From positions 124,001-188,000 of the forward strand of contig NZ_AUCV01000001.1 in the NCBI RefSeq assembly GCF_000429945.1: DNA of 64,000 bases, read 5' to 3'. Below the pieces are notes generated by a model that did not search any database, had not been told where the DNA came from, and was given only the letters and a program-made list of their open reading frames with translations. This document shows, in pieces, positions 10,848-63,216 of this stretch (position 1 is its first letter; each line of letters begins with the position of its first letter). Origin of the DNA: Desulfogranum japonicum DSM 18378 (GTDB lineage: Bacteria > Desulfobacterota > Desulfobulbia > Desulfobulbales > Desulfobulbaceae). A program made the position numbers and the translations under genes.

Positions 10848-12797
10848 TTATTTTCCGAGCAACTGAGTAAGTTGCCTGGCATCCATGATGGTTATGGTAC
10901 CGTCAGCGTCAAGGTCGCATTCAGGACATTTTCCTGCGGACTGACGGAGGAAATGTTGCAGTTCAGTAAGATCATTTCTGTCGATCAGCCCATCATTGTT
11001 AATGTCGCCATGTTGTGAGAAATAATAGCTTTTTATACAATGCTCATTACCTGGAAGAGGTTCGAGTTTTTTTCCTTCTGCTGCCAGATTACCCACATAG
11101 GTCACAAAAGACATTGCATAGTCTAGGTACGTATCGATTCCAGGACCTCGTTGATCCTGAACATCCTTAAATGTGAGATAGCCGTCTTTTCCCTGACCGG
11201 TGTAGCTGTTGGTCACGATGACATACATGGTATTTTCCTGGATGAGCGTCCAGTTTTTACTGGTTCGGTCCATGATTTCCAGATTTTTTATGCGCATGTT
11301 TGCGGGATTAGACATGTTAATGTCGTAGCGTAGGCCATAGCTATAAGGAAAGGAGCCGCTTGACCCCCCATTATCATAATAGTTGGTAAGGGCATCTTCC
11401 AGGGCCTGTTTGATTTCGCTTCCTTTCATCTCGATTTCAAACAGCGTGTTGCTGAAGGGGAGCAGGGTATAGGCTGTATCATATGTTACGTCACCTGCCT
11501 GAACATTTATGCGCACACCTCCCGCATTTTGGATACAGGCATCTGCGCGCAGGCTAAGCTCATAAAATCCTTTTGCAACCAGCGGGGCGATCTCGCTGCC
11601 CAGGGGAAATTCAGCGCCACTATTGCCCAGGTAGTCTATTCCTGGAATACGAACATGGCTGAGTTCCTCGCCGGCCTGTCCGATAACCTGTGCTTTCATC
11701 ACATCGACCTTGTCAGAATAGGTCTGAAGGGAGGTGGCCGCATCCGTATCTTCTTCAACAATGGCAATGTTTGTTCGGGTCTCTATGAAATTCTTAATTT
11801 CTTCTTGTTCCAGTATACTGACCTCAACTTTGTTGCCGTTTGCATCCTTGCGTTTAAACATGCTGCCGACAGGGAGCACCGCAGCGCCACTGCAGGATGT
11901 AACCTGGCCGTTATCGTCAAAAGAGACATCAAGGCTGCCAACCGCCTTGGCATACTCCCATGCCTGGGCAATGCAGACAGGGTTTCCATCCTTATCGCTC
12001 GTCTGTACAGGATAAGGATAAGAACTGCCCAGACCGAAGGCTTTCACATCTCCCATAAGAGAGTGTGAATCGCCATCAATGATGATATCAATGCCTGTAA
12101 TCTTTTGTGCCAGCTCCATATCATTTTTCAAGCCATAGTGGCTGAGCAGGATGATTTTATCGATGCCGTAGTCGTTTCGGAGCAGGTCTGCATAGTACTG
12201 GGCTGTGGTCAGTTCATCCTGGAACGTGATCTCATCACTGGGGTTGGAGGAAGCCTCGGTTTTCTGCTTGACGTCAATACCGATGATTGCAACCTGCTCA
12301 CTACCAATTTCTTTGATGATATATGGAGACCATTTTCCTTCGAGCACGTTTCCTGCGTCCGGGATAACATTGGCAGCAACGATATCACCATTGAGTTTAT
12401 CCAGGTAATCTGCCAGGTGCTGGTCACCGTCATCGAACTCATGATTGCCGAGAACAATGGCATCCCAGTCGATCAGGTTCATCATTTCCGCAGTGGCATC
12501 TCCTTTGAAAAGGGTGTAGTACAAAGTTCCCTGGAAAGTATCACCGGCATTAAGTATGAGAGCATGTTCAACTTCTGCAACCTGTTGTTCAATAAAATTT
12601 ACAGCCCTGGGTATACCGCCAAGTTCAACAAAGGTATCCTGGCCTGCCAGGGATAGCTCGAAATCCTGTTCGGCTGAGAGGTGCGAATGGATGTCATTCA
12701 TGTGGATAATTCGCAGCTCCAGTGGGCCAGAGCAGGCGGAGGTCAATGTGAGCAGGACAGATGACGTTAATGCTGCGCAAAACAGTGATCGTTTCAT
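10848..12797 (-). CDS. 5'-nucleotidase/metallophosphatase with C-terminal dockerin domain
   Basis: 649 aa from the ATG at 12797 (MKRSLFCAAL), with AAGGAG 10 nt upstream; a longer frame to 12887 overlaps the upstream gene and is less likely. A signal peptide ends near TSAC, possibly a lipoprotein site. The metallophosphatase domain has MNDIHSHL, NAGDTFQG, GNHEFDDGD and LLSHYG metal-ligand motifs. The 5'-nucleotidase C-terminal domain has NAGGVRINVQAGDVTYDTAY. The last 55 residues are a type I dockerin: two Ca-binding loops, DINNDGLIDRNDL and DLDADGTITIMDA. Family enzymes dephosphorylate extracellular nucleotides. It lies 34 nt downstream of a cohesin-domain gene, so both probably share the upstream riboswitch. 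The dockerin would let it dock on that cohesin protein (inference). Confidence 0.9.
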   Translation of the reverse strand: MKRSLFCAALTSSVLLTLTSACSGPLELRIIHMNDIHSHLSAEQDFELSLAGQDTFVELGGIPRAVNFIEQQVAEVEHALILNAGDTFQGTLYYTLFKGDATAEMMNLIDWDAIVLGNHEFDDGDQHLADYLDKLNGDIVAANVIPDAGNVLEGKWSPYIIKEIGSEQVAIIGIDVKQKTEASSNPSDEITFQDELTTAQYYADLLRNDYGIDKIILLSHYGLKNDMELAQKITGIDIIIDGDSHSLMGDVKAFGLGSSYPYPVQTSDKDGNPVCIAQAWEYAKAVGSLDVSFDDNGQVTSCSGAAVLPVGSMFKRKDANGNKVEVSILEQEEIKNFIETRTNIAIVEEDTDAATSLQTYSDKVDVMKAQVIGQAGEELSHVRIPGIDYLGNSGAEFPLGSEIAPLVAKGFYELSLRADACIQNAGGVRINVQAGDVTYDTAYTLLPFSNTLFEIEMKGSEIKQALEDALTNYYDNGGSSGSFPYSYGLRYDINMSNPANMRIKNLEIMDRTSKNWTLIQENTMYVIVTNSYTGQGKDGYLTFKDVQDQRGPGIDTYLDYAMSFVTYVGNLAAEGKKLEPLPGNEHCIKSYYFSQHGDINNDGLIDRNDLTELQHFLRQSAGKCPECDLDADGTITIMDARQLTQLLGK

Positions 12798-12831
12798 GTA
12801 GTGTGCACTCCTTGATGGTGTATGGTGGCGT

Positions 12832-13422
12832 TCATCTGTTCCATTGGAAGCTCTGTCGTCGTGCCAGGCCCAAAAGACCGAAAGCAAAAAGTAGAGCCGA
12901 GGATGGCTCGGGGACTGGATTCATAATCTGAATGGACGATGTATTGATTGTAGGGACAATGGCATCCCCCTGTTCATCGCTGAAGTCCGAATACCCAATA
13001 GTCAAATCTGAATGCCCGACACTGAGTGCTTCAAAGCTCAAAGTAACCAGGGAAAAGGTTGTTGGTTGGAAAGAAAGGTCAGCAAGAAAACTGACTTCCG
13101 TTACGTTTACCGTACCCGCTGAAAGCTCTCCTCCACTCCAGTCAACTGCTTCAAAAAGTGTCAGGTCCCCCAGCGAGTTGGCCAAGGTGTAGCCGAGAAA
13201 ATTCAGGCTGCTGGCGTCGTATTCAAGGTCAAAATCAAAAGCGCCCAATAACTTCCCGTCACCACCATACATGATGTCTACCTCCAGGGTTTCACCAATC
13301 ATAGCTTGTGGGGTTGCCACGGTGATGTCAACAGTCGGGCTTGCATGGCAGACACTGCAGGCCGTAGCAGCAAATAGCGCTGTGGTCATGATGATGAACC
13401 GTTGATCCAGTCTGTTTGGCAT
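12832..13422 (-). CDS. cohesin-domain PEP-CTERM surface protein
   Basis: 196 aa from the ATG at 13422 (MPNRLDQRF), with AAGGAG 7 nt upstream. The longer frame to 13569 runs through the riboswitch and is rejected. A signal peptide covers about residues 1-27. Residues 28-165 resemble a cohesin domain: the opening VDITVATPQAMIGETLEVDI and the FDFDLEYDASSLNFLGY segment are typical of cohesin beta-strands. The C-terminus is a PEP-CTERM sorting signal: VPEPSSALLFAFGLLGLARR, a PEP motif, a hydrophobic helix and arginines. PEP-CTERM proteins are processed by exosortase and linked to exopolysaccharide export. It is first in a two-gene unit with the dockerin nucleotidase. Confidence 0.88.
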   Translation of the reverse strand: MPNRLDQRFIIMTTALFAATACSVCHASPTVDITVATPQAMIGETLEVDIMYGGDGKLLGAFDFDLEYDASSLNFLGYTLANSLGDLTLFEAVDWSGGELSAGTVNVTEVSFLADLSFQPTTFSLVTLSFEALSVGHSDLTIGYSDFSDEQGDAIVPTINTSSIQIMNPVPEPSSALLFAFGLLGLARRQSFQWNR

Positions 13423-13460: not shown

Positions 13461-13519
13461 CGGAAAAAATGAAGACCTCAAGCTGCATCAGATAGATGAG
13501 CAAGGCTGCATTTTTTCCG
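13461..13519 (-). promoter_or_regulatory. putative expression platform of the GEMM riboswitch
   Basis: Directly 3' of the aptamer on the minus strand, CGGAAAAAATG (reading into CATTTTTTCCG) forms an 11-bp perfect inverted repeat spanning 13461-13519, ending 38 nt before the cohesin gene start. A stem with a U-run in one arm is suited to attenuation. The mechanism is inference. Confidence 0.5.
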
Positions 13520-13600
13520 TGCAACCCGGCCATCCGATAGCTTTCGGACCCGTGGCTTTCCGTCCCCATTTTACAATGGGTTTGGCCATGATGAGTGTCA
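13515..13600 (-). ncRNA. GEMM-I cyclic-dinucleotide riboswitch
   Basis: The minus-strand RNA contains the family core: GGCCAAACCC, a hairpin with CCCATT/AATGGG arms and GTAA tetraloop, the near-invariant GGGACGGAAAGCCACGGG, a second hairpin (CCGA/TCGG) and the closing GATGGCCGGGTTGC. These are the hallmarks of GEMM-I aptamers, which bind c-di-GMP, with a subclass binding 3',3'-cGAMP. By hand alignment to the Vibrio Vc2 RNA the ligand-contacting position 20 is G, favouring c-di-GMP; this is tentative. It sits about 95 nt before the cohesin PEP-CTERM gene in the same direction. Confidence 0.88.
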
Positions 13601-18979: not shown

Positions 18980-21409
18980 TTATATATTGGTCAACAATTC
19001 GATGGTTTCTGCTATCTCCTGACCGGTTACGGTCTGTCTGATCGCTTCCATCTCTTTCATTTTTTCAGCAAAGCGGATTCCTTCGGCTGCACTGATCCAC
19101 TCAAGTTGCAACCGTTCAGGGCGAATCCCCAGTTTGCTCATTTTTTTGCGAATACGGTTGACCCGTTTTTCAGTCCAGTGGTTGGCATCAATATAATGGC
19201 AGTCCCCAATGTGGCAGCCACTAACCAACACTACAGGAGCACCCTGGCGAAAGCCTTCCCAGATGAATTTTTCATCCACTCTACCAGAACACATCACGCG
19301 AACCAGATGTGCATTGGCCGGGTATTGCAAGCGGGAGACACCAGCATAGTCTGCACCTGCATAAGAGCACCAGTTACAGGCAAAAACCAGAATTTTTGAG
19401 TCAGCCGCTTTTTCCAGCATTGCATCCACTTGACCGATAATCTGCTGGTCTGTGTAGTGGTTCATGCTGATAGCGTCAAATCGGCACTCAGCAGAACAGG
19501 TTCCGCATCCGGCACATGCAGCAGAGTTAACCACTGCAGGTTGTTTGTTTTTTCTATCTACGGTTATAGCATTATACGGACAGACCTGGCCACAGATACC
19601 ACATGAGGTACACTTCTCCGTAATAACCTCTGCTGTGATAGGTTCAGTGGTGATTTCGCCCTTGTGCATCAGGCGAATGGCACGTACTGCAGCTGCACTG
19701 GCCTGGGTAACACTTTCCTTGATATCCTTGGGGCCTTCTGCACATCCAGCGTAAAAGATTCCGCGGGTGGCTGCATCCACTGGTTGAAGTTTGGGATGCG
19801 CTTCAAGGTAGAATCCATCAGGTGTCAGTTGCAGGCCCATCATTTCCTGCAGGCGCTGGGTCGATGGTGCGGGTTGCATACCCTGGGCAAGTACCAGCAT
19901 CTCAAGTTCATGAAACTCCAGGCTGGAGGTGGCACTGTTTTCCACCGCAATTCGCAGGCTTTTGTTTTCTGTCTCTTCCACAGAGCCAGGCAAGCCACGG
20001 ATGAATTGTACCCCGAGTTTTCGGCTGCGGGTATACAGTTCTTCAAAACCTTTACCAAAGGCCCGGATATCAATATAGAACACCTTCACTTCCATATCAG
20101 GATAGTGTTCTTTGAGTACCAGGGTCGATTTGATGGTATTCATACAACAGATGTTGGAGCAGTATTCACCACCTTTACGGGAAGAACGTGAACCAACGCA
20201 CTGGATGAACCCGACCGATTTGGGATGGGTTCTGTCTGTGGGGCGAACCAATGATCCCTGTGATGGACCACCGGCATTAACCAGCCGTTCGAATTCCAGA
20301 CTGGTCAAGACATTCTCAAATCGTGTGTATCCATATTCATCAAGTTCTGTGGGGTCATATGGCTTCAGACCTGTGGCAACAATAATGCTGCCCACATGTT
20401 CCACAATTTCTTCGTCCGACATGTGAAAGTTAATACACTTCTTGTCGCAGACTTCAATGCATTTGGAGCAGACCGCCGGGTTATGTCCCAGGCACTCTTT
20501 GATATTTATAAGGTAGGATGAAGGTACGGCCTGGGGAAAAGGACTGTAAATTGCCTTGCGGGAGGCGAGTCCCATGTTAAATTCATCAGGTCGCACCACC
20601 GGACAGACCTTGGCGCATTCACCGCAGGCTGTGCAAGCAGTTTCATCGACATATTTTGCTCTTTTGATAATTTTAACATCAAAATTACCAACATACCCTT
20701 TTACGTCCACGACCTCACTCAAGGTCAGGAGTTTTATCCGTGGATGTCGACCGACATCCGTCATCTTAGGACCGAGTATTCAAATCGAGCAATCCATAGT
20801 CGGAAAGGTCTTGTCCAGCTGAGCCATTATTCCGCCTATGGATGGTTGTTTTTCCACTAAGGTTACGTCATAGCCGCTATCCGCCAGATCAAGGGCTGCC
20901 TGAATACCGGCAACACCACCGCCAATGATCAGCGTCTTTTTGGTCAGAGGCAGGGTTTCTTCATTGAGAGGTTGCAGGTGGCGTGCTCTTGAGATGGCCA
21001 TGTCAACCAGGGTTTCCGCTTTTCGGGTGGCGTTGTCGATATCGTTCATATGCACCCAGCTGCATTGTTCACGCAGATTTGCCATTTCCATCATGTATGG
21101 ATTCAAGCCGACTGACTGCACCATCTGCTTAAAGGTCGGTTCGTGTAGGCGGGGTGAACAGGAAGCGATAACAACACGGTCAAGACCGTTATCGAGGATG
21201 TCCTGTTTAATCTGTTGTTGTCCCGGTTCTGAACAGGCATAAGGGATATCCTTGGACAGTACCACGCCATCTGTATCAGCTGCACCTTCTGCAACCTGCT
21301 TACAGTTAACTGACTGAGCGATATTTAATCCACAATGGCAGACATACACACCGATTCGTGCATTATTTTCATTCCCACTGGATTTCTTGGGGACATTGGA
21401 TGTTGTCAT
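18980..21409 (-). CDS. hdrA: HdrA-MvhD fusion, selenoprotein read through an in-frame UGA
   Basis: 809 aa from the ATG at 21409 (GGAG 7 nt upstream). The frame is interrupted once, by TGA at 20780-20782 (residue 210). The text around it reads DKTFPTMDCSI-U-ILGPKM, where HdrA proteins normally have Cys (CSICIL). Homology continues unbroken on both sides. An N-terminal GVYVCHCGLNI segment, an FAD-binding IIGGGVAGIQAALDLA motif (about 163), a ferredoxin-type CTACGECAKVCP (about 255), two 4Fe-4S motifs near 600-640 (CTSCGICGQVCP, CAGCGTCSAECR) and an MvhD-like C-terminus from about 665 (VFACNWCSYAGADYAG) are visible. HdrA carries the bifurcating flavin of Hdr complexes. Last gene of the operon. 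Gene callers will split it into 209- and 594-aa pieces. Confidence 0.92.
20742..20759 (-). promoter_or_regulatory. hdrA: bacterial SECIS-like hairpin for the hdrA UGA
   Basis: Starting 20 nt after the UGA, GGATGTC and GACATCC form a perfect 7-bp stem with loop GGTC. The loop matches the GGUC seen in the E. coli fdhF SECIS apical loop, and the distance is in the usual range for bacterial SECIS elements. It lies inside coding sequence. Confidence 0.75.
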
Positions 21410-21591
21410 GTATATTCTCCGAATTTGAGTAAGCGATTCAAAATCTTCATGGTTGTGTGGGCGTAATCGTTTATCTGAACATTCCATGACAAACAATCAC
21501 GCCGCAATTCACCAGAAGGATTCTGTATACTTACAACGCGTTTTGTAAAAAACAGTCAACAGGTCACTCTGTGAATATTTACAGGGGCTTC

Positions 21592-23190
21592 CTATTTCCA
21601 GGTAATGGTTTGAGCAATAACGCTAGTTAAATCAAGCATCTCTATCTGGAGTTCTTCTTCGCGAAAAGGATCCTGCATGGCGCACTGCAGATGTATTTGG
21701 CATTTCGGGCATGAGGTGATTAACAACTCCGCCCCGGTTTCCTTTGCCTGCTGAAGTCGCTTAACCTGCATGGCTTTTGAATATGAGTCGCAACCTGTCC
21801 AGGCAGTGTTTCCGCAACACATCGAACCTTTACCTGATTCGCGCATTTCCGTAAAAGTGTTTGGCTGTAAGCGAGCTAGAAGTTGGCGTGGCAGTTCCTG
21901 GCGGTCTTCGAGCCGGCAGAGACGACAGGAATCCTGGAAGGTAACGGCCTTGTCAAAAGATGTAAATTCAACAGCCCCTCGGTCAATTTCTTTTTCAAGA
22001 AAATCATAGAGGTGAACCACTTCAAAGTTGAGTTGAAATCCCATGTCAGGATAGGTGGTTTTGAAGGTCATGTAACACTCCGGGCAGGTGGTGATCATGG
22101 TCTCTATGCCCAGGCTGTTGAGTCGTTCAACATTGAGTCTTGCGACTTCTTTGAAGTGTCTCTGTTCACCTGACCACAGCAGGTCATGGCCGCAGCATCT
22201 TTCATCCCCAAGCAATCTCGGGTGTACGTCGAAGAAATTAAGCAGACGGATACTGTCAAAGAGAATTTTTTCTGTATTTACATCAATGTGCTTGCTGAAA
22301 AAAATGTCAAAATACGGAGCACACCCTCCATAAAAAAGAATATTTGAGTCAGGATCGATCTTAAGCTTTTCAGGGATATTCTGGTATCGATTGGGGGTAA
22401 GATCCGGGGACGCCATGGAGCGCATCAGAGAATGTAAAAAGCCTCCATGGGCCTCATTACCCTGGATGGTGTTCTTCTGGTACAGGTAGCGGAGTTCTTT
22501 AATAAAAGCAGGGAAATTCACTGCAGACGGACAACGTTCATAACAAAGGCCGCAAGTTAGACAGGACCAGACATTTTCCTGCACGTTGGTTTTGTACAGT
22601 TCGTTATTAATTACAGCTGTAGCGATCCCCCTTGCAGAAAAAGGTTTCCCGACCAGAGCCAGGGGACAGGCGGAAGAACACTTTCCGCAATCCTGGCACG
22701 CATGGATATCGTAAGTATTGACAAGTGCGCTCACCTCCTCACGGGGGAGATTTAGCGGGTTGGCGGGAAGTGGATTGTCCGGCAGAGTGGTAATGGCTGT
22801 TGGCCCGAGCTTCTGAATGTCGTGTAAGAAAGTTTGCAGGAACTCCAGTAACTCCTCGGACTGTTCAGGCAGAAATGTGGCAAAACGAAGGCGTTCCTGT
22901 CCAATACCCATAAGGTCAAGAATAGTTCCTGTATCCTGGGTATTTCGTATGGCTGTGGGGGTGCCGGAACCATATCGGCAGGTTCCTGGAGAGCAGCCGA
23001 TCATGGCTACTCCGTCTGCGCCCTTGGCAAAGGCTCTGAGAAGCAATGCCCGGTCAACTCTGCCTGTACATGGAATACGCACCATATGCACAGCTTCTGG
23101 GATATTCTGTTTTTCATCCTGCAAACTGAGATACGCTGCGTGGGGACCCCAGTTGCAAAGAAAGAGGATTATTTTTGTTTGTTTATTCAT
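21592..23190 (-). CDS. MvhD-HdrC-HdrB type fused iron-sulfur subunit
   Basis: 532 aa. Residues 1-130 resemble MvhD/FlpD (FLCNWGPHAAYLSL, IPCTGRVDRALLL, IGCSPGTCRYGSG). Residues 160-240 are an HdrC-like pair of 4Fe-4S sites (CQDCGKCSSACP, CLTCGLCYERCP). The rest has two CCG domains as in HdrB/HdrD: RCCGHD with CPECYMTF, then DSCRLCR, MCCGNTAW and CPKCQIHL. CCG domains bind the non-cubane clusters that reduce disulfides or related acceptors. The fusion would hand electrons from a flavoprotein to the HdrB-like site. It begins 6 nt after the 1126-aa flavoprotein gene and is followed 182 nt later by hdrA. The physiological acceptor is unknown. Confidence 0.88.
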   Translation of the reverse strand: MNKQTKIILFLCNWGPHAAYLSLQDEKQNIPEAVHMVRIPCTGRVDRALLLRAFAKGADGVAMIGCSPGTCRYGSGTPTAIRNTQDTGTILDLMGIGQERLRFATFLPEQSEELLEFLQTFLHDIQKLGPTAITTLPDNPLPANPLNLPREEVSALVNTYDIHACQDCGKCSSACPLALVGKPFSARGIATAVINNELYKTNVQENVWSCLTCGLCYERCPSAVNFPAFIKELRYLYQKNTIQGNEAHGGFLHSLMRSMASPDLTPNRYQNIPEKLKIDPDSNILFYGGCAPYFDIFFSKHIDVNTEKILFDSIRLLNFFDVHPRLLGDERCCGHDLLWSGEQRHFKEVARLNVERLNSLGIETMITTCPECYMTFKTTYPDMGFQLNFEVVHLYDFLEKEIDRGAVEFTSFDKAVTFQDSCRLCRLEDRQELPRQLLARLQPNTFTEMRESGKGSMCCGNTAWTGCDSYSKAMQVKRLQQAKETGAELLITSCPKCQIHLQCAMQDPFREEELQIEMLDLTSVIAQTITWK

Positions 23191-23196
23191 GGTCTT

Positions 23197-26100
23197 CTAT
23201 GCTCCATGGACTGCATTACTCTGGAGTATTTCCTCAAGAGCCTGTTCGAGGTATGCTCTATTTCTGTATGGGCTATCGACGGCACCTGTGGGACACATTG
23301 ATATACAGTTGCCGCACCCTTTACAGATGGCTTCATCCACTTGAGCCTGCCAGCCGCCCACCTGATTACGGGAGAAACTCATTGCATGGTAAGGGCATAC
23401 TGATATGCAGCGTCCGCATCCTCTACAGAGTTTGGAATCCACCACAACGGTAAAACCCTTACTCTGACGGGGGCCTCGGGGTAGGGCAGATGCTGCCATA
23501 ACCGCGGCTGCCGCACCTTTTTTCAGCTTGGAAACATTCAGGCCGCCGGGTTCTGCCAGAAACAATCCCGGCACTGAAGTGGCACAGGGGTAAGCAAAAG
23601 GAATGCCGGTGATGTCTTTTTGCTGGTTGACCGGTTCTATGGTTTTGGCAGGCAGACCTTCCTGGTGAGTATAAGGAATACGGCGGCGAGCCTTTTCTCC
23701 CAAAATCACGGTTCCTGCGCGTATGGCCTGGCGTTCACCATCGGATTCAACCAGTATCTGAAAATCACCTATTGTACCGCTGAGTGCGATGACATTCCAC
23801 CCCATGAAAGAATGGATATTGGCATGATCCAGTTCTTCGGTAGCCGGCTGCTCAAACGTTCCGAAATGGAAAACATCATGATCCGTTTGAGCCAGATGCA
23901 GGGCACTGTTCAGGGTGGCCTGGGAATTGCCGATAACGGCTGCAGTAAAATTGTAGTTTCTGTCAACAGCTGGCAACGGCTTGAGGCTCTTAACCCGTTC
24001 CATAGATCTATGCAGCAGGCCTTTGAAACGTGCCATGGCAAGTTCAGGGTTAGTTGTTACCAGACGAAGGACCTCTCCTCGCAGGTTTTGCGTCTCTACC
24101 ATGGAGCGGCTGATACCTGTACCATGGAATAATCCGTCTTTGAGGCGACTTCTCTGGTCAGTACAGGCACTGCATACAAAATTGAGCGGACAGCAGACGC
24201 AGGAAGCCAGGACTATTCTGGTGAGCCCTTTTTCTCTGGTGGTTTTGATAATAGTGTCAATACCGTCGTCGGTACAGGCAGAGTTGATGGTCTGTGCATG
24301 GACAATCATGGAATCCTTCTCTTCCTGTTCATGAAGAAAAGTATTCATACCTTCAAGCCAGCCTAGTGAGTTATTACATCGGCAGGCAAAAACACCGATG
24401 CGTATTTCCTGCGAAAGTCCGGCATCAGGTGTGGAAAAGGCCAGAGCATGACCTTTGGTACGATGTGCAGAATCTCCCAGCAGGATCATTGCTTTGGCGG
24501 CAGCATCAAAGCCACGGACAATCATATCGTTAACTTCTGTGCGGGCGGCTTTAGGTCCATAGGCACGAATGACGTCTTCACCCCGGATAACAGGCACGAT
24601 GTTAGGATCGGCCATAATAATGATGCCGCCCTGTTCAACAAGCTCTGTTTCAACCTGATTGTGATTGATAGCCTGAACTTCTCCACAGGCCTCCACGCAT
24701 TGAAAACACTCTGAGCAAGCCCCACACTGCAGGCATCGCCCTGCTTCAGCAAGGATTTGCTGCTCAGAAAGCCCCAAGGCAACTTCGTTGAAATTCTGCA
24801 CCCGTTCACCCGGTTGTCGCTCAGGCATTTCACGTCGTTTTTGACGTGGGATATCCGGTGAGATTGGTGTGAAATCTCTGTTCAAAGGCCGGGTCGTTGT
24901 GTGACTGCCGATTTCATGGTTCAGGTCAGCATCCATAATTGCTGCGACCTTTTTTCCGGAAGCCATGGCATGTACAACGGTAGACGGACCTGTAACGGCA
25001 TCACCGGCAGCATAGAGTCCAGGCATTGTGGTCCTTTGCTGTTCATCTACAGCTAGAAAACCTCGATCTGTGACAGAGAATGGTGTCGTCATTTCGGCTG
25101 TAAAACACCCAACCTGACCGATAGCAACGAACGCAAGATCAAATTCCATGGACCAGGGGGCAATCTGTTCATCAACAACCGGCCAGGCTATGTCGCCTTC
25201 CGCTGCTAAGCCTGGTTTTGTAGCTCTGCATTCCAGAGCATTGAACGTGGTACCGTCCCCAAGAAAAGCTGTAACCTGGGTCTGGTCTTTAATGGTAATG
25301 CCTTCTTCCAGTGCTTCCCGTATCTCATCTTTGTCAGCAGGGATTTCTTCCTTTCTAAACCAGGAAAGCATGGTAACCTCAGCGCCCAGACGTGCCAGGG
25401 TTCTGGCCAGGTCAAAGGCTGAATTGCCGTCGCCAATGACCGCTACCTTCTTGTTCATAGAACTGATATGTTGCCATTTACTTCTGGTGAGAAAGGAAAT
25501 GCAGCCTTCAATCCCCTCCAGGTCTTCACCAGGGATACCGAGCTTACGATCGCTCCAGCTGCCTGTGGTCAGGAGGGTTGCATGAAAATCGTTGTTGACC
25601 GTATTGAGACCGGTCACAAGGTCAACATCCTGGGAGCAGGCAAAGGTTACTCCCATTTTTTCGATGCGCTGCAGTTCACGGTCCAATACAGGTTCTGGAA
25701 GTCGATGTGATCCTATACCATAACGGAGGAGGCCCCCTGCTTTTTCCTGACGTTCAAAAACCGTTACCTGGTATCCTCTTTCTGCCAATTCGGCTGCCGC
25801 AGCAATACCGGCTGGTCCGGATCCTATGATAGCGATACGTTCTTTTCTAGTGGGAGCCTGGGGGGGCGATTCAACATCAGTACTAGTATGGGTTTCAGCA
25901 TAGTCCGCCAGGAATCGTTTGATTGCACGGATAGAAACCGGTTCGTCCAATTCTCCACGACGACAGCTTTCTTCACACGGATGGGTACAGATTCGACCAC
26001 ATATACCAGGCAGGACGTTCTTTTCTCGTATCAGGTCTAAGGCTTCCTGGTATTTTCCCTTTGCAGCCAGAGCAACATATCCCTGAGCATTCACGCCCAG

Positions 26101-26577
26101 GGGGCAACTCGCCTGGCAGAGTGGTTGCTGGCGCTTGTCTATGGTGGGGCGTCCTGGCAGACTTTTACGGGAATCCAGACTGAGTGGTTTGCTGTTGTCG
26201 CAGTTTGTTACGGGACATGCCTCAGCACACTTGCCGCAAAGGACACATTTTTCGGGATCCACGTACGTGAGGTCTTTGCGAATACGTACGCTGAATCCCT
26301 GTGGTGTATGTTTTATAGCTGAAATGGTGGCTGGCAGGATCGTGCGGATTCGACTATTTCGCAATATCCTGATCAAACCTGGGCGATGTGCGAAGTTGAA
26401 TGTCTGGCCTGATTGCATACGATAAGCTTCATTTGCAAGTTTGACATTCAGATCAGGATCAGCGTCAACGAGGGTAACCGGAATACCCAGTTCTCCCAGT
26501 TTATTGGTAGCAGCGATTCCTTCTGGAGTGGCACCCAGGACTATTACTCGGTGCAGACGTTCCTTTTGTCGTGTCAT
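23197..26577 (-). CDS. 1126-aa multidomain FAD/FeS oxidoreductase (HdrA fragments plus GltD-like module)
   Basis: The start ATG overlaps the korC stop (ATGA). An N-terminal nucleotide-binding segment (VIVLGATPEGIAATNKLG) and a 4Fe-4S motif (CVLCGKCAEACP, about 120) precede a GltD/NfnB-like region of about 450 residues. That region has Cys-rich CPLGVNAQGY and CGRICTHPCEESC, IAIIGSGPAGIAAAAELAER for FAD, VAVIGDGNSAFDLARTLARL for NAD(P), and AAGDAVTGP. After a CLQCGACSECFQC cluster come HdrA-like N-terminal sequences (FACRCNNSLGW, VLASCVCCPL) and a C-terminal two-cluster ferredoxin (CRGCGRCISVCP, CKGCGNCISMCP). It probably links NAD(P)H to ferredoxin and the Hdr partners. Such a single-chain arrangement is unusual; function is inferred from domains. 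Confidence 0.85.
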   Translation of the reverse strand: MTRQKERLHRVIVLGATPEGIAATNKLGELGIPVTLVDADPDLNVKLANEAYRMQSGQTFNFAHRPGLIRILRNSRIRTILPATISAIKHTPQGFSVRIRKDLTYVDPEKCVLCGKCAEACPVTNCDNSKPLSLDSRKSLPGRPTIDKRQQPLCQASCPLGVNAQGYVALAAKGKYQEALDLIREKNVLPGICGRICTHPCEESCRRGELDEPVSIRAIKRFLADYAETHTSTDVESPPQAPTRKERIAIIGSGPAGIAAAAELAERGYQVTVFERQEKAGGLLRYGIGSHRLPEPVLDRELQRIEKMGVTFACSQDVDLVTGLNTVNNDFHATLLTTGSWSDRKLGIPGEDLEGIEGCISFLTRSKWQHISSMNKKVAVIGDGNSAFDLARTLARLGAEVTMLSWFRKEEIPADKDEIREALEEGITIKDQTQVTAFLGDGTTFNALECRATKPGLAAEGDIAWPVVDEQIAPWSMEFDLAFVAIGQVGCFTAEMTTPFSVTDRGFLAVDEQQRTTMPGLYAAGDAVTGPSTVVHAMASGKKVAAIMDADLNHEIGSHTTTRPLNRDFTPISPDIPRQKRREMPERQPGERVQNFNEVALGLSEQQILAEAGRCLQCGACSECFQCVEACGEVQAINHNQVETELVEQGGIIIMADPNIVPVIRGEDVIRAYGPKAARTEVNDMIVRGFDAAAKAMILLGDSAHRTKGHALAFSTPDAGLSQEIRIGVFACRCNNSLGWLEGMNTFLHEQEEKDSMIVHAQTINSACTDDGIDTIIKTTREKGLTRIVLASCVCCPLNFVCSACTDQRSRLKDGLFHGTGISRSMVETQNLRGEVLRLVTTNPELAMARFKGLLHRSMERVKSLKPLPAVDRNYNFTAAVIGNSQATLNSALHLAQTDHDVFHFGTFEQPATEELDHANIHSFMGWNVIALSGTIGDFQILVESDGERQAIRAGTVILGEKARRRIPYTHQEGLPAKTIEPVNQQKDITGIPFAYPCATSVPGLFLAEPGGLNVSKLKKGAAAAVMAASALPRGPRQSKGFTVVVDSKLCRGCGRCISVCPYHAMSFSRNQVGGWQAQVDEAICKGCGNCISMCPTGAVDSPYRNRAYLEQALEEILQSNAVHGA

Positions 26578-27155
26578 TGTGCAATGGCTCCTGTCATACC
26601 TGCGGCACGTTTCTCTTTTCCTTTGAGAGTGGAAAGGCCGTAATCAAACCCTTTATTAAAGGCTTTCTGGTTTTTTTCTTCTGTTCCCTTCGGCACTGAT
26701 CGGTTGACGGTCTCCAGGGCAGCATTTTTGGATACAGCTTCTGTAATAGCTGTGAAAAAGCCAATCATAATGATGTTGGCCATCATTTTATGTCCCAGAC
26801 TTTCAGCCATTCTGGTGGCAGCGATTTCGTAGTGTGCGCAGGGAGCATTTGTAGTGGGTACCAGGTCCTGATCTGTAAGAAGGATTGAGTCTTCCTGCAG
26901 CAGGCCGGAAAATTTGTCATATCCTGCCTGGGACATAGCCACTAGAATATGTGGTATCTTCACATACGGATAGTGGATGGGGGTATCGGAGATGATAACC
27001 TGTGCATTACAGGCGCCACCACGTGATTCCGGACCATAAGCCTGTACCAGTGTTGACTCCTTATTGTCGCCTAGAGAAGCGGCTGTGCCGAGAATACGGC
27101 CAGCCAAAATGATTCCCTGTCCGCCAAATCCGGTGACTATAATTTCTTTCTGCAT
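26574..27155 (-). CDS. korC: 2-oxoacid:ferredoxin oxidoreductase, gamma subunit
   Basis: 193 aa, close to the family length. It starts with the gamma-subunit signature EIIVTGFGGQGIILAGRILG and has the ESRGGACNAQV motif found in KorC/VorC/PorG. A C-terminal Lys-rich helical tail (EEKNQKAFNKGFDYG) is typical of the KorC branch. The ribosome site is weak. It is separated from korB by 202 nt and overlaps the next gene by 4 nt. It works with KorA, KorB and KorD to oxidise a 2-oxoacid, most likely 2-oxoglutarate, and reduce ferredoxin; the substrate cannot be fixed from sequence alone. Confidence 0.9.
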   Translation of the reverse strand: MQKEIIVTGFGGQGIILAGRILGTAASLGDNKESTLVQAYGPESRGGACNAQVIISDTPIHYPYVKIPHILVAMSQAGYDKFSGLLQEDSILLTDQDLVPTTNAPCAHYEIAATRMAESLGHKMMANIIMIGFFTAITEAVSKNAALETVNRSVPKGTEEKNQKAFNKGFDYGLSTLKGKEKRAAGMTGAIAQ

Positions 27156-27357: not shown

Positions 27358-28209
27358 TTAATCCTCACTGCATTGTCTGCAGGTGACCTCGTACATGTCA
27401 TCGCAGGTGCTGCGATCAGTATCGACAAAAGTCCCCAGGATGACACCACGTTCAAAGTCAATATCCGCACGTCCAGGATCTGCTCCATTTTTAATAATGG
27501 TCTTTTCCTGATACAGTTTCATGGTATCCAGGGATTTTTCCTTGTTACGTCTGCCATAATTAATGGGGCAGGGGGCAAGTACTTCGATAAAGGAAAATCC
27601 TTTTTTCCGTATAGCCTCATTGATGGCATTGGTCAGGTCTCTGACATGCAGGATTGTCCAGCGTGCCACATAGGAGGCTCCAGATGCGTAAGCCAGGAGG
27701 GGCAGGTTGAACGGTGAATCAGGATTGCCAAACGGGGTCGTGGTCGTCTTGGCTCGGCTGGGAGTGGTAGCTGCGACCTGGCCTCCAGTCATGCCATAGT
27801 TCAGGTTATTTACACAGATGACCGTTATGTCCATGTTGCGGCGTGCTGCATGGATGAAATGATTGCCACCAATGGCAAACAGGTCACCATCTCCACTGAA
27901 GACGATAACGTTCAGATCCGGCTTGGCCATTTTTATACCACTTGCGAAAGGAATGGCACGGCCATGGGTTGTGTGAAAAGAATCCAGCTTGATATATCCT
28001 GCTCCCCTTGCTGAACAGCCGATGCCGGAAACCATGGTGAACTCGTTATAGGGAATTTCAGTGGCCTTTATTGCTGTGAGGCAGGATGAGAAGACCGTAC
28101 CAATGCCGCACCCGGGGCACCAGATGTGAGGAATACGATCGGTCCGGATCAGGTCGTCCAATGGATGGGACGGTTGTTTGCTGCCTATCTGTTTCGGGTT
28201 TTTGGTCAT
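27358..28209 (-). CDS. korB: 2-oxoacid:ferredoxin oxidoreductase, beta (TPP-binding) subunit
   Basis: 283 aa. The CPGCGIGT motif near the N-terminus gives the cluster and TPP environment. GDGDLFAIGGNHFIHAARRN and VNNLNYGMTGGQVAATTP are the standard TPP/Mg segment of beta subunits, and LAPCPINYGRRNK is typical of the KorB branch. Its ATG overlaps the korA stop (ATGA), so translation is coupled. The beta subunit carries out decarboxylation on thiamine diphosphate and hands electrons to FeS clusters. The tail TCRQCSED is followed by a 202-nt gap before korC that may hold a very small frame, discussed under findings. Confidence 0.93.
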   Translation of the reverse strand: MTKNPKQIGSKQPSHPLDDLIRTDRIPHIWCPGCGIGTVFSSCLTAIKATEIPYNEFTMVSGIGCSARGAGYIKLDSFHTTHGRAIPFASGIKMAKPDLNVIVFSGDGDLFAIGGNHFIHAARRNMDITVICVNNLNYGMTGGQVAATTPSRAKTTTTPFGNPDSPFNLPLLAYASGASYVARWTILHVRDLTNAINEAIRKKGFSFIEVLAPCPINYGRRNKEKSLDTMKLYQEKTIIKNGADPGRADIDFERGVILGTFVDTDRSTCDDMYEVTCRQCSED

Positions 28210-29357
28210 GGCTGGAAGACCTCCTTTATCAGAGAAACCACCTTGTCCGGGTGGATGATTTTACCGCCTGCAGAACCCACCAGGTGAGTTGATGCCTGTC
28301 CTTTGGCACACCTTTCAACTTCATAATGCACCTGTCCGAGGTTGATCTCAACGGTTATGAGGCCTTTGACACGGGCTGCAATATCGTGAATCATCTGCTC
28401 TGGAAAAGGCCATACCGTAATTAATCTGAGAAGTCCTGCTTTGTAACCCAGTTTGCGGGCTTCATCTACTGCTGTCAGCCCTGTACGGACAGAAATACCA
28501 TAGGAAACAATGACAATATCAGCGTCATCCATCATGTATTCTTCTGTGTGCACGATATCATCAAGGTTGTCCCGGATTTTACCTTTGATCCTGGTCATCA
28601 TTTCTTCCTGGGCTTCAACGGTCATGGCTGGGTAGCCTCGTTCATCGTGGGTCAAGCCTGTTACATGAACGTTGTAGCCATCGCCAATGGCAGGCATGGG
28701 GGCCACGCCATTGGGACCTGGTTCATACAATTTGAAACGGTCCTTTCTCCCTTTGGGTTTTGGGCGCTCTATCAATTGGATTTCTTTTGCATCTGGGATG
28801 ATAACCTTTTCGCTCATATGACCGACGATTTCATCGGCCATAACCAGTACAGGCACTCTGTATTTTTCGCTCAGGTTAAACGCAAGGATGGTGTGATAAA
28901 AGCAATCCTGAGGAGATGATGGTGCAATGGCGATGAGTTCATAATCTCCGTGCGATCCCCAGCGTGCCTGCATCATGTCCCCTTGCCCTGTTTGTGTGGG
29001 CAGGCCGGTGGATGGGCCGGTTCGCTGGACATTGACAATCACACAGGGTGTTTCTGTGCACACACCAAGCCCGAGGTTTTCCATCATCAGGCTGAATCCC
29101 GGACCTGAGGTGGCTGTCATAGTCTTAGTCCCTGTCCAGGATGCACCAAGGATTGAGGCGATAGCGGCGATTTCATCTTCCATTTGAATAAAGGTGCCGC
29201 CGACATCCGGCAATCTCTCGGCCATGTGTTCTGCAATCTCAGTTGCCGGGGTAATCGGGTAGGCGCCGAAAAAACGGCATCCTGCTGCGATGGCGCCCTC
29301 GGCACATGCCACATCACCTGTGATATAATGGCTTCCTGTTTGAACAGCTGATTTCAT
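28206..29357 (-). CDS. korA: 2-oxoacid:ferredoxin oxidoreductase, alpha subunit
   Basis: 383 aa, normal length for KorA. It opens with GDVACAEGAIAAGCRFFGAYPITPATEIAE cofactor-domain sequence; the central MEDEIAAIASILGASWTG and TATSGPGFSLMMENLG motifs contact TPP. A late transketolase-C-like domain includes SYGISVRTGLTAVDEARKLG. AAGG lies 6 nt before the ATG. It lies 54 nt after korD and overlaps korB by 4 nt. With KorB it forms the catalytic core; the product is an acyl-CoA, CO2 and reduced ferredoxin. Confidence 0.93.
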   Translation of the reverse strand: MKSAVQTGSHYITGDVACAEGAIAAGCRFFGAYPITPATEIAEHMAERLPDVGGTFIQMEDEIAAIASILGASWTGTKTMTATSGPGFSLMMENLGLGVCTETPCVIVNVQRTGPSTGLPTQTGQGDMMQARWGSHGDYELIAIAPSSPQDCFYHTILAFNLSEKYRVPVLVMADEIVGHMSEKVIIPDAKEIQLIERPKPKGRKDRFKLYEPGPNGVAPMPAIGDGYNVHVTGLTHDERGYPAMTVEAQEEMMTRIKGKIRDNLDDIVHTEEYMMDDADIVIVSYGISVRTGLTAVDEARKLGYKAGLLRLITVWPFPEQMIHDIAARVKGLITVEINLGQVHYEVERCAKGQASTHLVGSAGGKIIHPDKVVSLIKEVFQP

Positions 29358-62800: not shown

Positions 62801-63052
62801 AAATTCGTTGTGTTCATACATGGCAGTAATTACCATGATATGTTGTTTGCACGCAATTTTTTCCACCTGAAAGAGGCAGTGATAATAAGAACACTCGTTG
62901 CCTGAAAAATACGCTTGACTTATACTCTCTCAGCGCTATGCTGATAAACGGAAAAAATGCTGGAATCGTACTGCTTCAGCACTTTTTTGTGTAAGAAATT
63001 CGCGTGCTGTGTTTCACAATCCATGCCATTGAAATGCAACCACGTATTTTAT

Positions 63053-63205
63053 TCTCAGGGCGGGGTGAAATTCCCCACCGGCGGTGAATGGGTTTACCTT
63101 GAACGGCAACTCCATAAGCCCGCGAGCGCCTGTGGTACGACAGGGTCAAGCAGATTCCAGTGAAATTCTGGAGCCGACGGTTATAGTCCGGATGAGAGAG
63201 AAATG
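63053..63205 (+). ncRNA. FMN riboswitch (RFN element)
   Basis: Canonical blocks in order: CAGGGCGGGGTGAAATTCCC, CACCGGCGGTGAA, AAGCCCGCGAGCGCC, GGTCAAGCAGATTCCAGTG, AATTCTGGAGCCGACGG and TATAGTCCGGATGAGAGAGA. It lies about 160 nt before ribB in the same direction. It should repress ribB when FMN is plentiful. Confidence 0.97.
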
Positions 63206-63216
63206 AATATATTACA

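Follow-up and report, generated by a model that had tools for sequence, protein, structure and literature searches.

Selenocysteine (Sec)-containing HdrA is a recognised bacterial selenoprotein family characterised by the motif CxxU (PMC9312934, PMC13188914), and profile NF040770 is named for it in PMC13188914. Syntrophobacter fumaroxidans and Syntrophus aciditrophicus have 7 and 4 members respectively (PMC1794560, PMC9312934, PMC13188914), and the operon stressed in the cited excerpts is glpC-hdrA-frhD-frhG-frhA. The occurrence of Sec HdrA in deltaproteobacterial lineages, also mentioned in a preliminary description of the DNA analysed here, is documented in papers of 2006, 2009 and 2016 (PMC1794560, PMC2702500, PMC5109826). 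In Desulfococcus multivorans, a Sec HdrA is split into two locus tags (dmul_C02770/80), and hdrA1, seen in proteomes, lies beside mvhD1 and a gene for a pyridine nucleotide-disulphide oxidoreductase (PMC5109826); to judge from the locus numbers, hdrA1 and C02770/80 are probably the same gene. In Desulfobacterium autotrophicum HRM2, HdrA1, HdrA2, HdrL1 and HdrL3 are Sec-containing types encoded beside mvhD (PMC2702500). Fusion of HdrA with MvhD defines a named type, type Ia HdrA (PMC12054007), and in HdrABC complexes it is the FAD of HdrA that splits electrons (PMC5861303, PMC6019823).

The gene described here, hdrA-mvhD, lies in a 64-kb stretch of DNA from Desulfogranum japonicum (hereafter the window) and is almost certainly a further member of the already known Sec-HdrA family. 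Its UGA occupies the last position of a CxxC motif for which Cys homologues exist, and it shares CxxU and NF040770 with the bacterial members, whereas its operon is kor-hdrL-mvhD/hdrCB-hdrA-mvhD instead of the arrangement stressed in the excerpts on that family. The D. multivorans Sec HdrA, compared by its published description, is alike in its Sec UGA, SECIS, two-tag split and similar neighbours, but neither Kor genes nor an MvhD fusion are mentioned in the excerpts of PMC5109826 cited. The HdrL proteins of D. autotrophicum are described as heterodisulfide reductase/glutamate synthase fusions, like the 1126-aa neighbour in the window; yet hdrA1 of that organism clusters with hydrogenase genes (PMC2702500), and the HdrL-like neighbour in the window displayed no in-frame TGA. 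Methanosarcina HdrA2 has the C-terminal MvhD fusion in common, and its HdrA2B2C2 complex is reported to bifurcate electrons, but it is archaeal, F420H2-dependent and, in the excerpts cited, not described as a selenoprotein (PMC6019823, PMC12054007). What this study adds to the family is a conserved korABC-hdrL-mvhD/hdrCB-hdrA(U) gene order and a Cys paralogue that groups within the Sec clade. Coordinates are summarised in the table.

Table. Features of the hdrA-mvhD locus, in window coordinates.
Feature	Coordinates	Strand	Basis
hdrA-mvhD, 809 aa with U210	18980..21409	-	NF040770 HdrA2 profile, FlpD/MvhD domain, homology to solved HdrA
Putative bacterial SECIS hairpin, 7-bp stem, GGUC loop at 20749-20752	20742..20759	-	Published model and conservation
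In-frame UGA, putative selenocysteine codon, residue 210 (C-S-I-U)	20780..20782	-	Codon comparison
532-aa MvhD-HdrC-HdrB fusion with two CCG motifs, both intact; predicted thiol/disulfide site partner	21592..23190	-	Domains
HdrL-like, 1126 aa: GltD-type NAD(P)H/FAD domain and HdrA-like C-terminal part	23197..26577	-	Domains/profiles
korC, 2-oxoacid:acceptor oxidoreductase gamma subunit	26574..27155	-	Domains/profiles
korB, beta (TPP) subunit	27358..28209	-	Domains/profiles
korA, alpha subunit	28206..29357	-	PRK08659, 571.6 bits (cut-off 411)
korD, ferredoxin-like delta subunit, 86 aa	29412..29672	-	Name by position and domain

Plain ORF calling yielded two minus-strand ORFs, 21496..20780 and 20764..18980, which share one frame and are separated by the TGA at 20782-20780; the second begins with an ATG shortly past this codon. 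Translation from the ATG at 21409, itself preceded by GGAG, down to 18980 with TGA read as U gave a single HdrA-MvhD of 809 residues. The preliminary description had taken the two adjacent frames for one HdrA in an unchanged frame, with the TGA placed on the family Cys, a C-terminal MvhD domain and a Kor operon, and all of this was borne out on the minus strand. The nearest solved chain, 5odc_A (HdrA), aligned with residues 17-666 (E 1.2e-227), continuously across the TGA and with a Cys opposite U210, and the fold of HdrA was taken as fixed because this homology is so strong. NCBIfam profile NF040770 (CoB-CoM heterodisulfide reductase HdrA2) covered residues 18-798 with 1198.7 bits, above its curated cut-off of 1100. 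The layout is that of a FAD/thioredoxin-reductase-type HdrA followed by FlpD/MvhD (PF02662, residues 673-789, E 1.7e-47), the fused C-terminal MvhD being that of type Ia HdrA (HdrA2). The UGA itself replaces the second Cys of the family CSIC motif, in the flavin (thioredoxin-reductase-type) domain.

Chain 5odc_A, which we take to be the M. thermolithotrophicus HdrA of the E356/K409 numbering, carried E and K at residues 356 and 409, and these matched E374 and K427 of the hdrA-mvhD product. Both residues are near the FAD and are thought to mark bifurcating HdrA (PMC12054007), so that the equivalents expected of an electron-bifurcating HdrA were present. A scan of the window for read-through TGA codons returned 42 candidates. 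With 239 and 600 codons, the open frames flanking the one at 20782 greatly exceeded those of all others; second came +12066 (235 and 196 codons), which lies antisense to a 679-aa ORF at 10848-12887. Elsewhere in the window, an FMN riboswitch (63047-63207, +, 105.2 bits) and a c-di-GMP-I riboswitch (13517-13596, -, 60.8 bits) were recorded.

Codon 210 was compared in two sets of homologues. The first, composed of a collection scan (the best 80 loci of a longer list) and of relatives' genomes, provided 101 rows spanning the codon. Among the matches listed, TGA occurred in all 85 rows with at least 71.7% identity, and TGC or TGT in all 16 rows below 68% (one gene counted twice); the 85 rows include the window gene and three genomes twice, leaving 82 distinct. 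The second set, partly overlapping the first, was made of class and phylum loci, and the codon was read for rows yielding a locus: TGA was found in 48 of 73 rows, down to 64.7% identity, TGT or TGC in 25, and other codons in none. Neither another stop nor a non-Cys sense codon was therefore encountered at position 210 in the rows read from both sets. The frame was open on both sides of the TGA in all 85 rows, which derive from numerous genera and projects. A pseudogene with a nonsense mutation, or a sequencing error, to which the split frame and the existence of a Cys paralogue in the genome might point, is refuted by this conservation of an identical TGA, among the matches listed, and by that of the hairpin described below, and its probability is close to nil.

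The distribution of TGA-form hdrA was patchy, the organism's own genus included. Named strains of Desulfogranum, Desulfobulbus, Desulfoprunum and Desulfatibacillum displayed it among the matches listed, and it was not found in three genomes of the same genus (G001, G004 and G005, 68-90% complete). Two further rows of this genus had the same identities as the Desulfogranum marinum and D. mediterraneum loci of the collection scan (G002 with L044, G006 with L043), which agrees with a Desulfogranum origin of the window. At the cut-offs used, HdrA matches occurred in 13 of the 57 relatives' genomes, own included (E 1e-150), five of the 57 having the TGA form; the class-wide scan gave matches in 20/257 genomes and the phylum sample in 58/395 (both E 1e-250). 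Two apparent oddities were dropped during these comparisons. A row of G384 with one TAG did not indicate UAG-coded Sec, its Sec-site codon being TGT, and a match with two TGA (G000:C24:35822-36283) was set aside as a selenoprotein candidate; it coincides with an ordinary ORF of 137 aa and with the junction preceding that ORF.

Downstream of the UGA, the hairpin GGATGTC-GGTC-GACATCC begins its stem 20 nt and its loop 27 nt past the codon, with -9.4 kcal/mol when folded alone. The bacterial SECIS model requires a loop of 3-9 nt with a G in its first two positions, a stem of 4-16 bp, a loop 16-37 nt after the UGA and a minimum free energy (MFE) of at most -7.5 kcal/mol (PMC13188914). With a 4-nt GGUC loop, 7 bp, 27 nt and -9.4 kcal/mol, the hairpin falls within this model throughout. 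On its own this is weak evidence: a model-fitting hairpin follows 37 of the 2538 TGA trinucleotides of the window, and single-sequence folding energy was set aside as proof because the 53-nt stretch folded no better than shuffles (z -0.57; 58/200 equally good). It is conservation that exceeds chance. Among the matches listed, all seven stem pairs could form in 75 of the 82 non-duplicate UGA loci, the remaining seven each missing one pair, the outermost in six of them and an inner one in L119, and the loop was GGTC in 81/82. When the stem was shifted by 3 to 12 nt (seven other positions), it formed in none of the 82. Folding of nt 4-53 gave an MFE structure containing the exact 7-bp hairpin for 57/82 loci (7/82 being unable to form it), and competing folds therefore exist. 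Of the 109 distinct UGA sequences, 108 formed the inner six pairs, whereas none of the 14 Cys sequences with more than 54% identity did so, and none of the 16 Cys rows of the first set formed the stem.

Conservation was also apparent within the codons that make up the hairpin. Synonymous codon variation was lowest at H222, G220, D218 and T217 (ranks 1-4 of 557 testable columns); among 622 windows of seven codons, the seven with the least variation began at residues 214-220. In the UGA set, His codon 222 was CAT in 109/109 sequences and Arg codon 221 only CGA or CGG, whereas the 14 Cys sequences used CGC, CGT or CGG for this Arg. Pair 28-35 was TA in 59, CG in 40 and TG in 10 of the 109 distinct UGA sequences and never CA, in counts uncorrected for relatedness. 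Exchange of T for C on one side of this pair replaces Val by Ala at codon 219; the compensating A-to-G exchange on the other side is synonymous (Arg codon 221, CGA-to-CGG), which is what conservation of the RNA pair would predict. A covariation test on 24 sequences, likewise uncorrected for relatedness, gave a score, a number of paired cells and a number of double-changed cells that were each reached by 1/500 shuffles; pairs with a double change (270/500) and pair types (500/500) were not unusual. Only one of the seven pairs co-varied, four being invariant among the 24 sequences. Selection at the RNA level was thus recognisable in the relatives, with a mixed covariation result, three of the five measures surpassing the shuffles.

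The genome (5.8 Mb, completeness 100, contamination 2.65) encoded a full Sec-decoding apparatus: SelA (611.7 bits), SelB (359.6 bits), SelD (366.8 bits) and a tRNA-Sec (75 bits) whose anticodon was TCA by ARAGORN, that is, selC with UCA. The selD gene (L127, just before 2779; G000:C27) displayed an in-frame TGA of its own, with a stable fold past the codon. Among 32 TGA-form genomes tested, 30 had a SelB match (5/5 + 14/15 + 11/12); no SelB match was found in the TGA-form genomes G294, which has a tRNA-Sec, and G089, which is 84% complete. It also occurred in 11 of 12 genomes whose observed HdrA forms were all of the Cys type, a label which in the phylum sample rests on at most two scored candidates per genome, with the codon of G296 not read; the twelfth, G265, has a tRNA-Sec. 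Since SelB accompanies both Sec and Cys HdrA, its presence is no predictor of the Sec form. A second, lower-scoring tRNA-Sec with anticodon TCA was observed in two genomes (L200, G091:C1:1233089-1233183; L201, G384:C1:1453893-1453980), and the one in G384 adjoins an additional SelB of lower score (G384:C1:1451941-1453836), some 7.5 kb away from the Cys HdrA of that genome.

The TGA might also be a true stop, with regulated termination giving two products, or be read through by a near-cognate tRNA (e.g. for Trp), in either case without selenium. The ATG at 20764 could start a second product, and the hairpin could in principle be a stall signal. Yet the codon aligned with Cys, not Trp, in every non-TGA homologue row read, the hairpin fits the bacterial SECIS model and was missing in the Cys sequences analysed, the genome has the Sec genes, and a break within the flavin domain would probably leave neither half functional. 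Such a reading is extremely improbable. The preliminary description had reported the 7-bp stem with its GGTC loop 20 nt downstream, which was recovered at 20759-20742, and had regarded a genome devoid of selA, selB, selC and selD, or close relatives without the hairpin and with random stops at this place, as speaking against selenocysteine. All four genes were present, the close relatives read kept TGA and hairpin with no random stops there, and the alignment with HdrA homologues gave TGA or a Cys codon in every row read. It is thus very probable, to the point of near certainty, that hdrA-mvhD is one intact selenoprotein gene in which UGA specifies selenocysteine 210.

Upstream of hdrA-mvhD and on the same strand were found, in this order, korD, korA, korB, korC, the HdrL-like gene and the MvhD-HdrC-HdrB fusion, with gaps of 54, -4, 202, -4, 6 and 182 nt. 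The two CCG motifs of the latter designate it as an HdrB-type partner, and no hydrogenase large or small subunit was detected among the operon genes scanned. By eye, the HdrA-like half of the HdrL-type protein (23197-26577, -) seems to be without the glycine-rich FAD motif (GNSQAT). Among the 53 loci with 7 kb or more of upstream sequence, 49 had korA-B-C-hdrL-mvhD/hdrCB, korD not counted, in this order and strand before the UGA hdrA. L071 and L100 had korA missing at the edge of the available DNA. The MvhD-HdrC-HdrB fusion occurred in 77/80 loci, the other three having less than 850 nt before the UGA, and the HdrL-like gene in 69/80. A separate Cys-HdrA clade (55-59% identity, L181-L191) displayed korABC directly before hdrA-mvhD in 11/11 loci and korD in nine of them, with an HdrC-like match after hdrA in 10/11 and no HdrL fusion between kor and hdrA; the link with Kor therefore exists with and without selenium. 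Among the open-access papers listed, no title or opening of an abstract described a Kor-linked Hdr operon.

The selenoprotein may nevertheless act outside any Kor-Hdr complex, its neighbours being merely co-expressed and HdrA(U) serving another partner (e.g. DsrC or a hydrogenase). This would agree with L079 and L088, where Sec hdrA and mvhD/hdrCB occur without hdrL or kor in the available upstream flank, and with the Cys paralogues of the own genome and G091, around which no kor, hdrL or hdrCB matches were found. Against it stand the order and strand kept in 49/53 loci and the adjacency of korABC and hdrA in the separate Cys clade. We consider it a serious contender, although with a chance clearly below even. 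A Kor-Hdr complex containing HdrA(U) is somewhat favoured.

The genome also encoded a Cys paralogue (TGT) of 68% identity (G000:C16:49741-52176; L124:9739-12180, -), whose neighbours were a glycosyltransferase, a membrane protein of the lysylphosphatidylglycerol-synthase type, an amine oxidase-like protein and a U32 peptidase. Similar Cys copies occurred in G091 (88% relative) and G384 (75% relative), both of which also hold the TGA form; the copy of G384 sits among other hdr-like genes. All three Cys paralogues fell within the Sec clade, both with FastTree (support 0.994 for the clade holding them) and in a quick IQ-TREE analysis (SH-aLRT 97). This suggests a Sec-to-Cys reversion with loss of the SECIS, which is left as a suggestion because a tree forcing all Sec rows together was not rejected (p-AU 0.0904). 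The table in PMC1794560, as excerpted, contains no Sec-to-Cys event for HdrA. The paralogue of the own genome may possibly serve as a selenium-free spare.

In the proposed mechanism, the hairpin just past the UGA would recruit SelB-tRNA-Sec, and the UGA would be decoded as Sec 210, which would stand in for the second Cys of the CxxC in the flavin domain. HdrA-MvhD would most likely sit at the centre of a soluble complex and bifurcate (or confurcate) electrons at its flavin, its partners being MvhD-HdrCB, the protein with the GltD-type NAD(P)H domain and a 2-oxoacid:ferredoxin oxidoreductase. Such a complex would form a three-way device connecting ferredoxin on the Kor side with NAD(P)H and with an acceptor of the thiol/disulfide or a similar kind. 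We infer bifurcation, partners and acceptor from domains and gene order; Sec insertion at 210, assembly of the complex and a chemical role of selenium likewise belong to the model. In its widest form, the proposal would describe a super-complex that is widespread in Desulfobacterota, depends on selenium and has hitherto gone undescribed (KorDABC-HdrL-MvhD/HdrCB-HdrA(U)-MvhD). In it, flavin-based bifurcation or confurcation, with Sec placed at the flavin, would couple 2-oxoacid oxidation or ferredoxin to NAD(P)H and a disulfide acceptor; the proposal would also include a stand-alone, Sec-to-Cys-reverted HdrA as a selenium-free spare here and in at least G091. Taken as a whole, this is tentative and unlikely to hold in every part.

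A gene that plain ORF calling splits was thus recovered as one, with a single putative selenocysteine and its SECIS rigidly kept wherever the orthologue was read. The conserved Kor-Hdr order together with a Cys paralogue in the same genome constitutes a natural Sec/Cys comparison, which makes the role of selenium in HdrA testable in a culturable sulfate reducer.
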